A stretch of DNA of 64,000 nucleotides, taken from positions 1 to 64,000 of the forward strand of contig BJHF01000011.1 in NCBI GenBank assembly GCA_014191855.1. The letters run 5' to 3'. Below the pieces are notes generated by a model. It had not been told where the DNA came from. It saw only the letters and a program-made list of their open reading frames with translations, and made no database searches. This stretch comes from Deltaproteobacteria bacterium (lineage in GTDB: Bacteria > Myxococcota_A > UBA796 > SXON01). Shown piece after piece: positions 915 to 7,711 of the stretch (positions are counted from its first letter, which is position 1; every line of letters starts with the position of its first letter). The translations under genes and the position numbers were made by a program.

Positions 915-1003
915 AGAACAGCCGCTCTTTGCCTCGCTGACGACTGGTTCACCGAGGCGGCGTCATCCCGGCGCCCTCAACGGTGAGCTTGGAGGAGATC
1001 TGC

Positions 1004-3052
1004 ATGTCGACCCACGGCCCCTCTGGCATCCTGGGCATGATCGCCCAACTCCAGGACCTCGAACGGTTCAAGGAGCAGCACTGGGAGGGCAGCTTCGAAG
1101 ACTACTTGGAGATCGTGCGCCAGCGGCCCGACGTCACTCGAAACGCCTGGCAGCGCCTCTACGATCTGGTGCTGTCGTTCGGCTCGGAGTCCTACACCGA
1201 GTACCGCAAGCCGATCATCCGCTACAAGTTCTTCGACGACCCCTTCGACAACGGGAAGGACGCGGTGTTCGGCATCGACGTGCACCTGATGAAGCTGGTG
1301 AACGTGCTGAAAAGCGCCGCATTGAGCTTCGGTCCCGAGAAGCGGGTGCTCCTGCTGCACGGGCCGGTCGGCAGCGCGAAGTCCACGATCGTTCGGTTGT
1401 TCAAGAAGGCCGTGGAGTGGTACAGCCGGCAGCCGGATGGGGCGCTCTACACCTTCGAGTGGCATCTACCCGACGGGCAGGTGGTGCCCTCCCCCATGCA
1501 CGAGGAGCCGCTGCGGCTCATCCCGCCCGAGATGCGCACCCAGGTGGTGGAGGAGCTCAACAAACAAGTAGCCGCGAAGGCGAAGTACAAGATCGAGGTG
1601 GATGGGGACCTCGATCCCGTGTCGCGTTTCTTGTTCCGCGAGGGCCTCAAGCAGGTGGGCGGCGACTGGACCCAGCTCATCACGCGCATCCGGGTGAAGC
1701 GGATCCTGCTGTCGGAGCGCGACCGTGTCGGCATCGGCACCTTCCAGCCAAAAGACGAGAAGAACCAGGACTCCACCGAGCTGACGGGGGACATCAACTA
1801 CCGCAAGATCGCCGAACTGGGCAGCGACAGCGATCCGCGCGCCTTCAACTTCGACGGCGAATTCTGCGTCGCCAACCGCGGCATCATCGAGTTCGTGGAG
1901 ATGCTCAAGCTCGACGTGGCCTTCCTCTACGACTTGCTCGGCGCGAGCCAGGAGCACGTGATCAAGCCCAAGAAGTTCGCCCAGACCCACATCGACGAGG
2001 TGATCATCGGGCACACCAACGAGCCCGAGTACCGCAAGCTCCAATCCAACGACTTCATGGAGGCGCTGCGCGACCGTACCATCAAGATCGACGTGCCGTA
2101 CATCACCCGGTGGTCGCAAGAAGCGCGCATCTACAGCCGCGACTTCAAGCGGCGGGTGAAGAAGCACATCGCCCCGCACACGCTGGAGATGGCGGCGATG
2201 TGGGCGGTGCTCACCCGGCTGGAGGATCCGAAGAAGCCGAACCTGACCGTGCTCCAGAAGATGAAGTTGTACGACGGGAAGACGCTGCCCGGGTTCACCG
2301 AGGACAACGTGAAGGAGCTGCGAAAGACCGCCATCCGCGAGGGCATGGAGGGCATCTCGCCGCGGTACGTGCAGGACAAGATCAGCAACGCCCTGGTGCG
2401 GGATGCGGATGCGCCCAGCCTCAACGCCTTCATGGTGCTCAACGAGCTGGAATCCGGCCTCAAGAACCACTCGTTGATCAACGACGAAGAGAAGAAGAAG
2501 CGCTACCGCGATCTGTTGGGCATCGTGAAGAAGGAGTACGAGGACATCGTGAAGAACGAGGTGCAGAAGGCCATCGCCTCGGATGAGAGCGCCATCCAGC
2601 GTTTGTGTGGCAACTACATCGACAGCGTGAAAGCCTACACCCAGAAGGAGCGTGTCAAGAACCCCTTCACCGGGGCCTACGAGGAGCCGGACGAGCGGCT
2701 GATGCGCAGCGTGGAAGAGAAGATCGACATCCCGCCGGCGCGGAAGGATGACTTCCGGCGGGAGCTGATGAACTACATCGGGGCCTTGGCGCTCGATGGC
2801 AAACAGTTCAACTACAAGATGAACGATCGGCTCTACAAGGCGCTGGAGCTCAAGATGTTCGAAGACCAGAAGGACAGCATCAAGCTCTCGAGCCTCGTAT
2901 CGCAGGTGATCGACCCCGAAACACAGGCGAAGATCGACATCGTCAAACAGCGTCTGATCGACAATTTCGGGTACGACGACAGCTCGGCCACCGACGTGCT
3001 GAACTTCGTGGCCTCCATCTTCGCGCGCGGGGACGCCAAGGAGTCCGGATAG
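1004..3052 (+). CDS. prkA: PrkA/YeaG-family serine protein kinase
   Basis: A 682-residue protein (E. coli YeaG is 644) with the PrkA layout: an N-terminal AAA-type domain with the intact Walker [10 protein letters not shown] at residues 120-128, then the C-terminal PrkA domain. PrkA proteins act in starvation and stress responses and, in Bacillus, in sporulation; kinase and AAA-protease activities have both been proposed. A strong GGAGGA at 991-996 lies seven bases before the ATG at 1004, which decides the start over the in-frame GTG at 983. The DUF444 gene starts seven bases after its stop and spoVR follows, the conserved prkA-yeaH-spoVR trio. Confidence 0.95.
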
Positions 3053-3059
3053 GCGCTCC

Positions 3060-4151
3060 ATGATCCTCAACATCGAGAACGACCTGCACCGCTTCCGCAA
3101 CATCGTGCGGGGGCGTGTACGCCGCGATCTGAAAAAATACATGGGATCGGGCGAGCTCATCGGGAAGCAGGGCGACAAGTTTGTGAAGATCCCCCTGCCC
3201 GAGATCAACATCCCGCGGCTGCGGTATGGCAAGAACTCGGCGGGTGGCGTCGGGCAGGGGGAGGGCGAAGAGGGCGACAAGGTCGGCGCGGCGGGCCAGG
3301 AAGCGGGAGACCAGCCCGGCGAACACGAGCTGGAGGCGGAGCTCACGCTCGACGAGCTGGCCGAGATCCTGGCGGAGGAGCTTGAACTTCCGCGCATCGA
3401 GCCCCGGGGAAAGAAGAACATCACCACGGTCCGCGACCGGTACACCGGCATCGCGCGGGTCGGGCCCAAGGCGCTGCGGCATATGCGCCGTACATGGCGG
3501 CAAGCGCTCCAGCGTCAACTGAGCACGGGCACGTACGATCCCGCCCACCCCGTGCTCGTGCCCCAGAAAGATGACTTCCGCTACCGGAGCTGGAACAGCA
3601 AGAACGAGCCACAGTCGGCGGCCGCGATCGTGTACGTGATGGACGTTTCCGGCTCGATGGGCAAGGAGCAGAAAGAGATCGTCCGGATGGAGGCGTTCTG
3701 GATCGATACCTGGCTCCGGGCCAACTACAAGACGCTCTCCACCCGCTTCGTGATCCACGACGCCGCGGCCCGCGAGGTGGACCGCGACACCTTCTTCCGC
3801 ACCCGCGAGAGCGGCGGCACGCTCATCTCCAGCGCCTACAAGGTCGTAGATGCCATCCTCACCGCTGACTACCCGGCCGACGAATGGAATACCTACGTGT
3901 TTCAGTTCTCCGATGGGGACAACTGGTCGTCGTCGGACACCAAACTGTGCATGGAGCTGCTCGCGGAGCGCCTGTTACCGAGGGTGAACCTGTTCTGTTA
4001 CGGCCAGGTGGAGTCGGAGTACGGGTCGGGCCAGTTCATCGGAGACCTGCGGGACGCCTACGAGAAAGACGAGCGCGTGGTGCTCTCGCGTATTGCCGAC
4101 CGCTCCGCGATCATGCAGTCGATCAAGGAATTCATGGGCAAGGGGCGCTGA
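3060..4151 (+). CDS. yeaH: YeaH/YhbH family protein (DUF444), vWA-like
   Basis: A 363-residue DUF444 protein. The N-terminal third is charged and Gly/Glu-rich. The C-terminal half carries a von Willebrand A-type fold with a complete-looking MIDAS signature (DVSGS, near residues 196-200, with a later GGT and SDGDNW), so metal-dependent protein binding is expected. In enterobacteria it is co-expressed with the PrkA kinase YeaG under stress, and the same order is kept here. Its TGA at 4149-4151 is one base from the spoVR ATG at 4153, so the two are translationally coupled. Its biochemical role is unknown. Confidence 0.93.
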   Translation: MILNIENDLHRFRNIVRGRVRRDLKKYMGSGELIGKQGDKFVKIPLPEINIPRLRYGKNSAGGVGQGEGEEGDKVGAAGQEAGDQPGEHELEAELTLDELAEILAEELELPRIEPRGKKNITTVRDRYTGIARVGPKALRHMRRTWRQALQRQLSTGTYDPAHPVLVPQKDDFRYRSWNSKNEPQSAAAIVYVMDVSGSMGKEQKEIVRMEAFWIDTWLRANYKTLSTRFVIHDAAAREVDRDTFFRTRESGGTLISSAYKVVDAILTADYPADEWNTYVFQFSDGDNWSSSDTKLCMELLAERLLPRVNLFCYGQVESEYGSGQFIGDLRDAYEKDERVVLSRIADRSAIMQSIKEFMGKGR

Positions 4152-4152
4152 C

Positions 4153-6864
4153 ATGGTCGAGAAGTTCTTCAAGCGCCCGCCGCGTTCGCTCCCTCCCGAG
4201 CTGGAAGTGGAGCGCAAACGTATCGAAGCGCTCGCCAAGGCTCAGGGGTTGGACATTTTTGAGACCGTGTTCGAGATGTGCGACTACGACGAGATCAACA
4301 TGCTCGCGGCGTATGGTGGCTTCCCCACGCGCTATCCACACTGGCGCTGGGGTATGGAATTCCTCCAGATGCAGAAGGGCTATGAGTACGGGCTGCAGAA
4401 GATCTACGAGATGGTGATCAACACCAATCCGTCGTATGCCTATCTGTTGGACAACAACCTGTTCGTGGACCAGAAGCTGGTCATGGCCCACGTGTTCGGT
4501 CACGTAGACTTCTTCAAGAACAACCTATGGTTCGCGCCGACCAACCGCAAGATGCTCGACAGCATGGCCGACCACGCCGTGAAGGTGCGGCGCATCATCG
4601 ACAAGGTGGGGGAGAGCGAGGTTGAGGCGTGGCTGGACGTGTGCCTCTCGTGTGACAACTTGATCGACCCCTACCTGCACCAGATCCGCCGCACCCGGCG
4701 GGACGACGCGCCGGAGAACGCCGGCGGGGTGCACAAACTGCCCGCGCGCTCCTACATGGACAGCTACATCAACCCCCCGGAGTACCTGGCCGAGCAGGAG
4801 GCGAAGCTGGTAGCGGCGGCCCAGCGCGCGACCAAGGTGCCCGAGGAGCCCGTGCGCGATGTGCTCGGCTTTGTGCTGGAGCATGGCCGCATGGCGGGGT
4901 GGCAGCGCGCGATCCTGGAGATCGTGCGGGACGAGGCGTACTATTTTGTGCCCCAGATGCAAACGAAGGTCATGAACGAAGGATGGGCCTGTGTGGACCG
5001 GGCCACGCTCGTGTTCACCGAGCGGGGGGTGATCCCGATGGGGGAGCTGGTGGCCGGCGAGGGCGGGGAGGTGTGGGACGGCGAAGCGGCGCGCCCGGTG
5101 TACGACCGCAACATCCTGCCGAACCGAAACACGGTGACCATCCGGACGCGGCGGGGGCTCACCCTGCGCGGCTCCGACAACCACCGCGTGCTCCTCCCGA
5201 GCGGGGAGTGGCAAGAATTGGGCAAGCTGGCGCAGGGAGACCGGGTGCGGGTGTCCGGCGGCGGTGGACGGTGGGCGCAGGCGCCCGTGGCCTTGAGCTG
5301 GCAGCCGGAAGTGCGACACACGCTCGCGGACGTGGCGGAGGCGGCTGGCGTCTCCGTGTGGACCATTCTCCGGCGCCGCTCGGGGCGTCGAGTGGAGCGC
5401 GCGGTTGCGGTGGACGCGGCGATCGAGGTGTACGAGGCACAGATCGACGTCCCGCAGTCCACCAAGAAGCGGGCGGTCGTTCGGATTCCTGCCGAGGTCA
5501 CGGAGGAGCTCGGCGCGTTCCTCGGCTACCTCGTCGGCGATGGCCACATCAGCCGGGTGAAGCGCTGCCTCGGCCTCACCACCGGCGACGTGGAACAGGT
5601 TGAGACCTTTGCGGGGCTCGCGCAATCGTTGTTCGGCCTCCTCCCCACGGTGCGAAAAGATGAGGGTCGGTGGCGTGTTCTCCTGCACTCCGAAACGCTC
5701 TCCGACTTCCTCTGCGACGGCCTCGGGCTCACCCACGGCCCGAGCGCGTGGGCGAAGGCCATCCCCACCGCGGTGCTGTGCAGCCCCGAGCCCGTCGTGC
5801 GCGCGTTCCTCCGCGCCCTCTTCGATTGCGATGGGTACGCCGGCAAGCAGGGGGTGATCCTCTCGACCGCCAGCGACTCGATGGGCGAGCAGGTGCAGCT
5901 CCTCCTGCTCAACTACGGGGTGCTCACCCGGCGCCGCTTGCAGGGCGATGGCGTGTGGCACGTTCACGCGGCGGGCCAATCCGCCGCGCGCTTCGCCGCG
6001 TGTGTCGGGTTCGGCTTGGCGCGCAAGCAGGCGGCGCTCGATGCGTACGTGAGCGGACATCACTGGTTCAAGCAGGAGGAGTGGACAGACGAGGTGATGA
6101 CCCTTGAGTGGGGGGTGGGGGATGTCGTCGACATCTCCGTCGAGGGTACCCACCGGTACGCCGCCGGCGGCTTCATCAACCACAACTCGTTCTGGCACAC
6201 CCGCCTGATGACGGAGCACATCCTCGATGACAGCGAAGTCATCGACTACTGCGATCACCACAGCGGCACCGTTGCGATGCGCCCCGGCCAACTCAACCCG
6301 TACAAGGTGGGGCTTGAGGTGTGGCGCGACATCGAGCGCCGGTGGGACCGCGGCCAGTTCGGGAAGGAGTGGATGGACTCCGAAGACGCGGCCGCGAGGC
6401 GCGACTGGGATACGGGCGTGATGCTCGGCAAGCAGAAGATCTTCGAGGTTCGCCGCACGCACAACGACGTGACATTCATCGACGAGTTTCTGACTCCGGA
6501 GCTGTGCCGCCGCATCGGCCTGTTCACCTACGAATACGACAAACGCTCCGGCGAGTTTCTCTTGGAGAGCCGCGACTTCGAAGACGTGAAGAAGAAGCTG
6601 TTGTTCATGCTGAGCAACCACGGCACGCCGCGGGTGGCCGTGACAGACGCCAACTTCGCCAATCGGGGTGAGCTGGAGCTGACGCACGACCACGAAGGCG
6701 CGGACGTGCAGATCCAGTGGGCCGAGACTGTGCTCGGCAACCTGGCGAAGCTGTGGGGGCGGCCGGCGCACCTGCTCACCAAGATCGAGGACAAGCCCGC
6801 GCGCATGTCGCACGATGGGGTTCAGTTCAGCTACGACGGGCCGAAGATCACCACCAAGGGCTAA
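4153..6864 (+). CDS. spoVR: SpoVR family protein interrupted by an intein
   Basis: The open frame encodes 903 residues, but SpoVR/YcgB proteins are about 500. Residues 280-678 are an intein, and removing them leaves a 504-residue SpoVR. The host motif NEGWA|SFWH is split between Ala279 and Ser679. SpoVR is needed for spore cortex formation in Bacillus; its molecular function is unknown. The ATG at 4153 sits directly behind the DUF444 stop; an in-frame ATG at 4093 would overlap that gene by 59 bases and is rejected. Third gene of the prkA-DUF444-spoVR operon, with a small gene three bases downstream. Activity presumably needs protein splicing. Confidence 0.93.
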   Translation: MVEKFFKRPPRSLPPELEVERKRIEALAKAQGLDIFETVFEMCDYDEINMLAAYGGFPTRYPHWRWGMEFLQMQKGYEYGLQKIYEMVINTNPSYAYLLDNNLFVDQKLVMAHVFGHVDFFKNNLWFAPTNRKMLDSMADHAVKVRRIIDKVGESEVEAWLDVCLSCDNLIDPYLHQIRRTRRDDAPENAGGVHKLPARSYMDSYINPPEYLAEQEAKLVAAAQRATKVPEEPVRDVLGFVLEHGRMAGWQRAILEIVRDEAYYFVPQMQTKVMNEGWACVDRATLVFTERGVIPMGELVAGEGGEVWDGEAARPVYDRNILPNRNTVTIRTRRGLTLRGSDNHRVLLPSGEWQELGKLAQGDRVRVSGGGGRWAQAPVALSWQPEVRHTLADVAEAAGVSVWTILRRRSGRRVERAVAVDAAIEVYEAQIDVPQSTKKRAVVRIPAEVTEELGAFLGYLVGDGHISRVKRCLGLTTGDVEQVETFAGLAQSLFGLLPTVRKDEGRWRVLLHSETLSDFLCDGLGLTHGPSAWAKAIPTAVLCSPEPVVRAFLRALFDCDGYAGKQGVILSTASDSMGEQVQLLLLNYGVLTRRRLQGDGVWHVHAAGQSAARFAACVGFGLARKQAALDAYVSGHHWFKQEEWTDEVMTLEWGVGDVVDISVEGTHRYAAGGFINHNSFWHTRLMTEHILDDSEVIDYCDHHSGTVAMRPGQLNPYKVGLEVWRDIERRWDRGQFGKEWMDSEDAAARRDWDTGVMLGKQKIFEVRRTHNDVTFIDEFLTPELCRRIGLFTYEYDKRSGEFLLESRDFEDVKKKLLFMLSNHGTPRVAVTDANFANRGELELTHDHEGADVQIQWAETVLGNLAKLWGRPAHLLTKIEDKPARMSHDGVQFSYDGPKITTKG
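4990..6186 (+). mobile_element. intein with LAGLIDADG homing endonuclease in SpoVR
   Basis: A 399-residue in-frame insertion (SpoVR codons 280-678) with all hallmarks of a splicing intein. It begins with Cys280 (CVDRATLVFTERG, block A) and has a block-B-like SDNHRVLL. Two LAGLIDADG-type helices follow: LGYLVGDGH (457-465) and LRALFDCDGY (553-562), with acidic residues kept. It ends with block F/G HRYAAGGFINHN, i.e. terminal His-Asn followed by Ser679 as the +1 nucleophile. An inserted helix-turn-helix-like segment lies near 390-411. All catalytic splicing residues look intact, so both splicing and homing could be active. Confidence 0.93.
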
Positions 6865-7308: not shown

Positions 7309-7409
7309 GGCCGGGGTCGGGCGAATCGCGGTTCCCTGTCCCGTGGTTGAGCGGGCCGCGCGGCGATTCGCGGTAGGCCGTGGACGGCGGCTCCGGCGCG
7401 GCGTCGGGC

Positions 7410-7622
7410 GGAGGTATCCCCTCGAAAAGCGACACCCGCCGCAGGTATCCCCTCTGAATTGCGACGGAGTCGGCGCCCTGGCGAACAAACAGCCGGAGGC
7501 GACGGCGCATTGCCGGCGTTGTTCGGTGCGGCGCCCCACGGGGTGGAGCGCGCGCGGCTGCGGGAGTCGCAATTCCGGGGAGATACCTCGAGCATCGTCC
7601 CAAATTGGGGGGGATACCTGCC
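7410..7622. repeat. inverted-repeat element with four AGGTATC motifs
   Basis: The 403-bp gap between the spoVR operon and the parvulin gene holds a symmetric element. The left arm (7410-7465) has two copies of AGGTATCCCC 31 bases apart and ends in GAATTGCGAC. The right arm (7566-7622) is its inverted counterpart, beginning GTCGCAATTC, with two GATACCT copies also 31 bases apart. About 100 bp separate the arms. The multiple spaced subterminal repeats recall the ends of IS21-family elements, but no transposase is present; a MITE-like remnant or a cluster of regulator sites are alternatives. Confidence 0.65.
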
Positions 7623-7711
7623 GCCGCGGTGCGCAGCAAGCCGGCTTGCCGAGGGCCAGTTCGCCGCGCATCGCTCCGAACAAGATAGTCTATCCAACCT
7701 CGGATCTCTGG

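Follow-up and report, generated by a model that had tools for sequence, protein, structure and literature searches.

An apparently undescribed intein at a fixed site of SpoVR in two bacterial phyla and large phages

The described inteins closest to the one reported here, TliVMA and PhoVMA (PDB 7qss, 7qsu, 7qst; PMC8966425), combine a Hint splicing domain with a two-motif LAGLIDADG nuclease and reside in the V-ATPase A subunit. Helix-turn-helix accessory domains are known in PI-TkoII and in TliVMA, where the domain follows the nuclease and precedes the C-terminal part of Hint (PMC8966425). PI-SceI, the yeast VMA1 intein, likewise joins Hint and a LAGLIDADG nuclease to an accessory DNA-recognition region. 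Related inteins also occur in mycobacteriophages and actinobacterial hosts, and their incongruent trees have been taken to indicate horizontal transfer (PMC5050341). We here study an intein in SpoVR, encoded on a 64,000-nucleotide stretch of a Deltaproteobacteria bacterium assigned to Myxococcota_A (assembly GCA_014191855.1, contig BJHF01000011.1, positions 1 to 64,000); this whole stretch is called the window.

The window intein shares the Hint domain and two-motif nuclease of TliVMA and PhoVMA, which are its best PDB match both by sequence (E 1.2e-15) and by fold (E 2.4e-23); PI-SceI is a weaker fold match (E 6.6e-12). It differs in its host protein and in its accessory segment, which is LacI-like and lies between the N-terminal part of Hint and the nuclease. 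Like the mycobacteriophage inteins it occurs in phages and in bacteria, but in other hosts and at other sites. The NCBIfam intein 'exception' families GyrA_w_intein, RtcB_rel_intein and rSAM_Tes_intein match the SpoVR precursor through shared intein domains, and no SpoVR-intein family in NCBIfam release 20.0 matched the window's SpoVR. No paper combining SpoVR and an intein was found in a literature search, outside which lay many subscription papers and supplementary tables. The element is thus apparently undescribed and mechanistically ordinary: its kind is known, and its novelty lies, as far as these searches reach, in the host, the site, the phage carriers and the LacI-like accessory domain. 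A stress and sporulation protein with no part in replication joins the known intein hosts.

Anatomy of the intein and its host

The features of the gene are as follows.

4153–6864, forward strand: spoVR with intein (903-residue precursor), third gene of the prkA–DUF444–spoVR operon (PF04293, E 4.8e-124, in two pieces)
4153–4989, forward strand: N-extein, 279 residues, ending NEGWA
4990–6186, forward strand: intein, 399 residues, Cys1 to His398-Asn399 (AlphaFold2 fold, same-site relatives)
4990–5193, forward strand: N-terminal Hint splicing region with Cys1 (block A) and His65 (block B) (TIGR01445, E 0.0022, below cut-off; both residues invariant in 41/41 copies)
5311–5439, forward strand: insert separating Hint from the endonuclease, a LacI-like helix-turn-helix at residues 108–150 of the intein (AlphaFold2 helices; PF00356, E 0.0087)
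5503–5553, forward strand: first LAGLIDADG motif, FLGYLVGDG, catalytic Asp184 (PF14528, AlphaFold2, alignment)
5785–5844, forward strand: second LAGLIDADG motif, FLRALFDCDG, catalytic Asp281 (PF14528, AlphaFold2, alignment)
6085–6186, forward strand: C-terminal Hint splicing region, blocks F and G, with Asp381, His388, His398 and Asn399 (invariant in 41/41 copies)
6187–6861, forward strand: C-extein, 225 residues, beginning SFWH with the +1 nucleophile Ser

The frame opens with an ATG at 4153, closes with a TAA at 6862–6864 and encodes a precursor of 102.1 kDa. The original prediction, made from the letters of the window alone, had placed an intein at 4990–6186 between NEGWA and SFWH, and these coordinates and boundary residues are exact: the insert is in frame, comprises 1197 nucleotides (399 codons), begins CVDRATLVF and ends THRYAAGGFINHN, with a terminal His-Asn, directly before a Ser. 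Its removal leaves a SpoVR of 504 residues in which the joined flanks read NEGWASFWH, and whose computed mass of 58.7 kDa is a little higher than the ~55 kDa that had been expected of the spliced product. The Pfam SpoVR match is itself split around the insert, into pieces at 4198–5007 and 6187–6621 that score 299.8 and 118.9 bits, above the cut-off, outside the insert. For annotation, SpoVR in intein-bearing genomes is a record of ~900 residues that needs splicing to give the protein.

No string in the SpoVR family is more conserved than the one at the junction of NEGWA and SFWH. N275, E276, G277, W278, A279 and H283 are invariant across 37 SpoVR homologues, and NEGWASFWH falls within helix 272–291 of the predicted empty SpoVR (predicted local distance difference test, pLDDT, 83). 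Interruption of such an invariant site, in the middle of a predicted helix, makes it very unlikely that the precursor functions until it has spliced. The insertion had also been described as lying in the active core of SpoVR, a description that this conservation and position bear out only by half; a structure search intended to assign an activity found no PDB neighbour of the predicted fold at E ≤ 0.001. Since no solved structure resembles that fold, the core is something we infer from conservation, and the family is still without a structural handle.

All six of the splicing residues, Cys1, His65, Asp381, His388, His398 and Asn399, are conserved in 41 of 41 aligned copies, and the +1 residue is Ser wherever the C-terminal junction was read. 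An AlphaFold2 model built from 28 sequences (mean pLDDT 92.2; predicted template modelling score 0.87) has as its Foldseek neighbours in the PDB, in order, TliVMA, PhoVMA, 2cw7 (intein endonuclease II, named PI-TkoII in PMC8966425), PI-PfuI and PI-SceI. On the strength of this splice anatomy and of the intein-free alleles described below, the identification of the insert as an intein is established; its terminal residues are those of class 1. We propose the site name SpoVR-a, after NEGWA.

The two LAGLIDADG helices noted in the original prediction are borne out by the Pfam family LAGLIDADG_3 (PF14528), which matches the insert in two stretches (E 2.1e-16), each with its catalytic aspartate. 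Of the 30 full-length copies from bacteria and phages, 29 retain Asp184 and 29 retain Asp281, and the nuclease is likely, by its motifs, to be homing-competent. Between Hint and the first LAGLIDADG helix the model has three extra helices (residues 112–119, 123–130 and 138–150) whose sequence, TLADVAEAAGVSVWTILRRRSG, is similar to that of LacI headpieces; full-length bacterial copies have this extra segment. The PF00356 match is weak in the window copy, at 16.3 bits (E 0.0087) under a cut-off of 27 bits; among full-length relatives 20/28 match at E ≤ 0.1 (best 2.4e-6), and one, L069, exceeds the cut-off with 27.7 bits. The position and sequence of these helices are a variation on the known theme of accessory domains.

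Empty and occupied sites

Six genomes of the same genus as the window (G004–G009) have a complete spoVR whose site is precisely empty and reads NEGWAS[FY]WH; a seventh, G010, is occupied. Full-length inteins of 399–404 residues occur in 17/379 sampled genomes of the window's phylum, all of them in SpoVR at NEGWA/S; SpoVR itself is present in 194/360 genomes of a second sample. No paralogous intein copy was found in the window's own genome. Among 301 genomes of Chloroflexota, 91 have SpoVR, and 23 of those 91 carry the insert, at full length (400–409 residues) or reduced to 359 residues (three copies) or 274–287 residues (eight copies); in one of the 23 carriers (G591, locus L076) the frame ends early and no C-terminal junction was found. 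The SpoVR intein of the Chloroflexaceae metagenome-assembled genome (MAG) SL_3_2 is 51% identical to that of the window. Altogether about 40 copies share this site, distributed over two bacterial phyla and large phages.

A long open frame free of stops, its position conserved across more than 40 genomes and contigs, is also what one would expect if the insert were a normal extra SpoVR domain of the lineage that stays in the mature protein. The segment is absent, however, from most SpoVRs, including the six of the same genus, and precise intein-free alleles of the kind the original prediction had proposed to look for exist in these close relatives and in many other genomes. Moreover, the splice residues are all invariant, even where the nuclease is eroded, the fold is that of an intein, and the insert breaks a predicted helix. 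The empty alleles and the splice anatomy therefore go most of the way to refuting an extra domain, to which we give next to no credence. Chance is likewise excluded, by the recurrence of an in-frame insert between the same two codons in over 40 other genomes or contigs and by the intact empty sites of close relatives.

The distribution of the intein is sporadic. On a tree of 150 SpoVR exteins its presence and absence require 24 changes, 20 of which are forced by well-supported branches. The SpoVRs of G010 and its closest relative, G008, are 98.2% identical, with the intein in G010 and not in G008. Between the window and G010 the inteins are 58.5% identical and the exteins 76.2%, whereas between the window and the more distant G276 (locus L047) the inteins are 63.7% identical and the SpoVRs 51.6%. 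Over 92 empty alleles the target DNA is conserved as ATGAAcGAgGG.TGGGC. before the insertion point and agctacTGGCAc after it (capitals >90%, lower case >60%). At the G010 insertion, three consecutive informative sites (−19, −7 and +14) match G007 in surroundings that mostly match G008, a pattern that is suggestive at best of a short co-conversion tract.

On all of this evidence we consider it very probable that the element is a homing-competent class-1 intein that splices from, and spreads by homing into, a fixed site of spoVR. Some observations weigh against this reading. On the window's insert alone, Intein_splicing (7.1e-5) and TIGR01445 intein_Nterm (0.0022) both fall below their curated cut-offs; Intein_splicing is matched by 28/28 aligned full-length relatives (best 1.5e-13). 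Block B is without its usual Thr, with Ser62 in the window and, over the full-length copies, Ser in 22 and Ala in 8. Finally, repeated gain and repeated precise loss are inseparable case by case.

In a different history, the intein still splices but no longer homes, and owes its distribution to an ancient spread followed by vertical inheritance and many losses. The intein tree does largely group by host family (f16, f43, f46, f15). Nevertheless, full-length copies almost always keep their catalytic aspartates, unlike non-homing forms; G010 is occupied next to its nearly identical empty sister; the inteins of the window and G010 have diverged more than their exteins; and the possible co-conversion tract, weak as it is, points the same way. 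We regard a loss of homing as improbable.

Decay of the nuclease and the proposed cycle

The Chloroflexota display the full homing cycle: empty sites, full-length inteins, and forms of 359 and of 274–287 residues. In the eroded copies Asp184 and Asp281 are absent in 11/11 and all splicing residues are kept; the copies of 359 residues lack the LacI-like helices, which are no longer recognisable in those of 274–287 residues. This is the decay expected of a homing module housed inside a splicing domain whose loss would cost the cell its SpoVR. That the LacI-like domain vanishes along with the nuclease suggests an accessory DNA-binding module tied to homing and not to splicing, and the forms of 274–287 residues are natural reduced splicing elements. 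A single site with empty, homing-competent, decaying and minimal states, in two phyla and in phages, makes the homing-cycle model testable on one gene.

As a separate observation, the Hint domains of L067 and L066, both from Chloroflexota, are nearly identical save for a divergent first ~35 residues in the block A region, as if the block A end had been replaced. We also note that the intein had appeared fixed in a 15-member Chloroflexota clade; this was rejected as a sampling artefact, as five empty rows fell inside the clade once empty SpoVRs were added.

The original prediction went further and suggested that the intein acts as a post-translational switch, one that splices slowly, or not at all, until stress allows SpoVR to mature. 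An insertion within the most conserved string, inside predicted helix 272–291, should indeed leave the precursor inactive; eroded inteins are retained in 11 Chloroflexota genomes; and stress-responsive splicing is reported for mycobacterial DnaB inteins (PMC6195587, PMC8557812). Against this, six relatives of the same genus, sister species included, and most of the phylum do without the intein, empty SpoVRs stand inside the Chloroflexota clade with eroded forms, no sensor-specific residue is evident, and the nuclease motifs are intact in nearly all full-length copies, which points to selection for homing. So sporadic a distribution, with 20 or more changes forced on the host tree, would be expected of a homing element and not of a conserved switch. 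Stress-conditional maturation is not supported here, and we think it improbable.

For the homing intein, the invariant residues and the fold suggest that the 102-kDa precursor would splice itself after translation: Cys1 would begin an N-S acyl shift, Ser+1 would take over the N-extein, and Asn399, with His398, would cyclise, to give a 58.7-kDa SpoVR and a 43-kDa intein. The free intein, with its two intact catalytic aspartates, would then cleave, as a site-specific endonuclease, those spoVR alleles that are empty, in the region encoding NEGWA/S(F/Y)WH, and repair of the break would bring the intein in. Extra contacts with the target DNA probably come from the LacI-like helix-turn-helix. In this way the intein may have spread among species, phyla and spoVR-carrying phages, although only its distribution is seen directly. 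Decay would follow once a site is occupied, the nuclease and helix-turn-helix being lost first and the splicing domain presumably retained because SpoVR needs it.

Large phages and the stress operon

The two genes ahead of spoVR complete its operon.

983–3052, forward strand: prkA, first operon gene (AAA_PrkA 1.3e-83, PrkA 3.8e-86)
3060–4151, forward strand: yeaH-like DUF444 gene, second operon gene (PF04285, E 2.7e-81)

Among IMG/VR viral contigs, a scan with a SpoVR alignment identified 51 loci, four of which, from two lineages of large tailed phages, have spoVR interrupted by an intein at this very position. The first lineage has an intein of 412 residues (L212, on a 150,762-bp contig, and L213, on one of 48,911 bp) and the second an intein of 403 residues (L214, 168,478 bp, and L215, 225,527 bp). 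In dozens of further viral contigs spoVR is free of any intein, and the gene has been counted as one of the viral auxiliary genes (PMC8940887). In L212 and L214, spoVR adjoins prkA and DUF444 genes, named by their similarity to the window's proteins. The 150-kb contig encodes a portal protein (3.7e-74), a major head protein (6.2e-83) and a tail sheath (7.9e-69), and the 168-kb contig tail-fibre-like proteins; a search of the phage contigs for Terminase_6N found none. The contigs are taken as viral because these portal, head, sheath and fibre families are present.

The phage inteins cluster with those of Chloroflexota (tree support 97/93), at about 45% identity, and the LacI-like region appears diverged in both phage copies of the alignment. 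A query by intein alone under-counts, because the same-site phage copies were found only through the alignment of the SpoVR host: an earlier scan of viral contigs with a three-row intein alignment gave two weak matches, and phage and plasmid records searched for close relatives of the window intein yielded only distant LAGLIDADG inteins in other proteins. We tentatively raise the possibility, itself unlikely, that the element shuttles between bacteria and large phages by way of their shared stress operon, with prkA–DUF444–spoVR phages as vectors. If so, the intein nuclease could cut the empty spoVR of a co-infecting phage or of the host, to the advantage of the carrier.

Other inteins were encountered in the same genomes. 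A LAGLIDADG intein lies in MutS of a Chloroflexota genome (L148, G390), directly after the P-loop stretch GPNMAGK; the SL_3_2 MAG (G379) has LAGLIDADG inteins in proteins resembling DNA polymerase I and ribonucleotide reductase (L063, L064); and contig 526 of G059, from the same order as the window, has an open frame of 2854 residues with several LAGLIDADG or intein-like segments (L040–L043). Downstream of the spoVR operon, at 7398–7626 of the window, intergenic repeats AGGTATCCCCTCnnnnTTGCGAC form face-to-face pairs 31 nucleotides apart. With at most two mismatches they number 25 copies genome-wide, against 0 for a reversed control pattern, and they look like a dispersed palindrome of the repetitive extragenic palindrome (REP) or bacterial interspersed mosaic element (BIME) kind.
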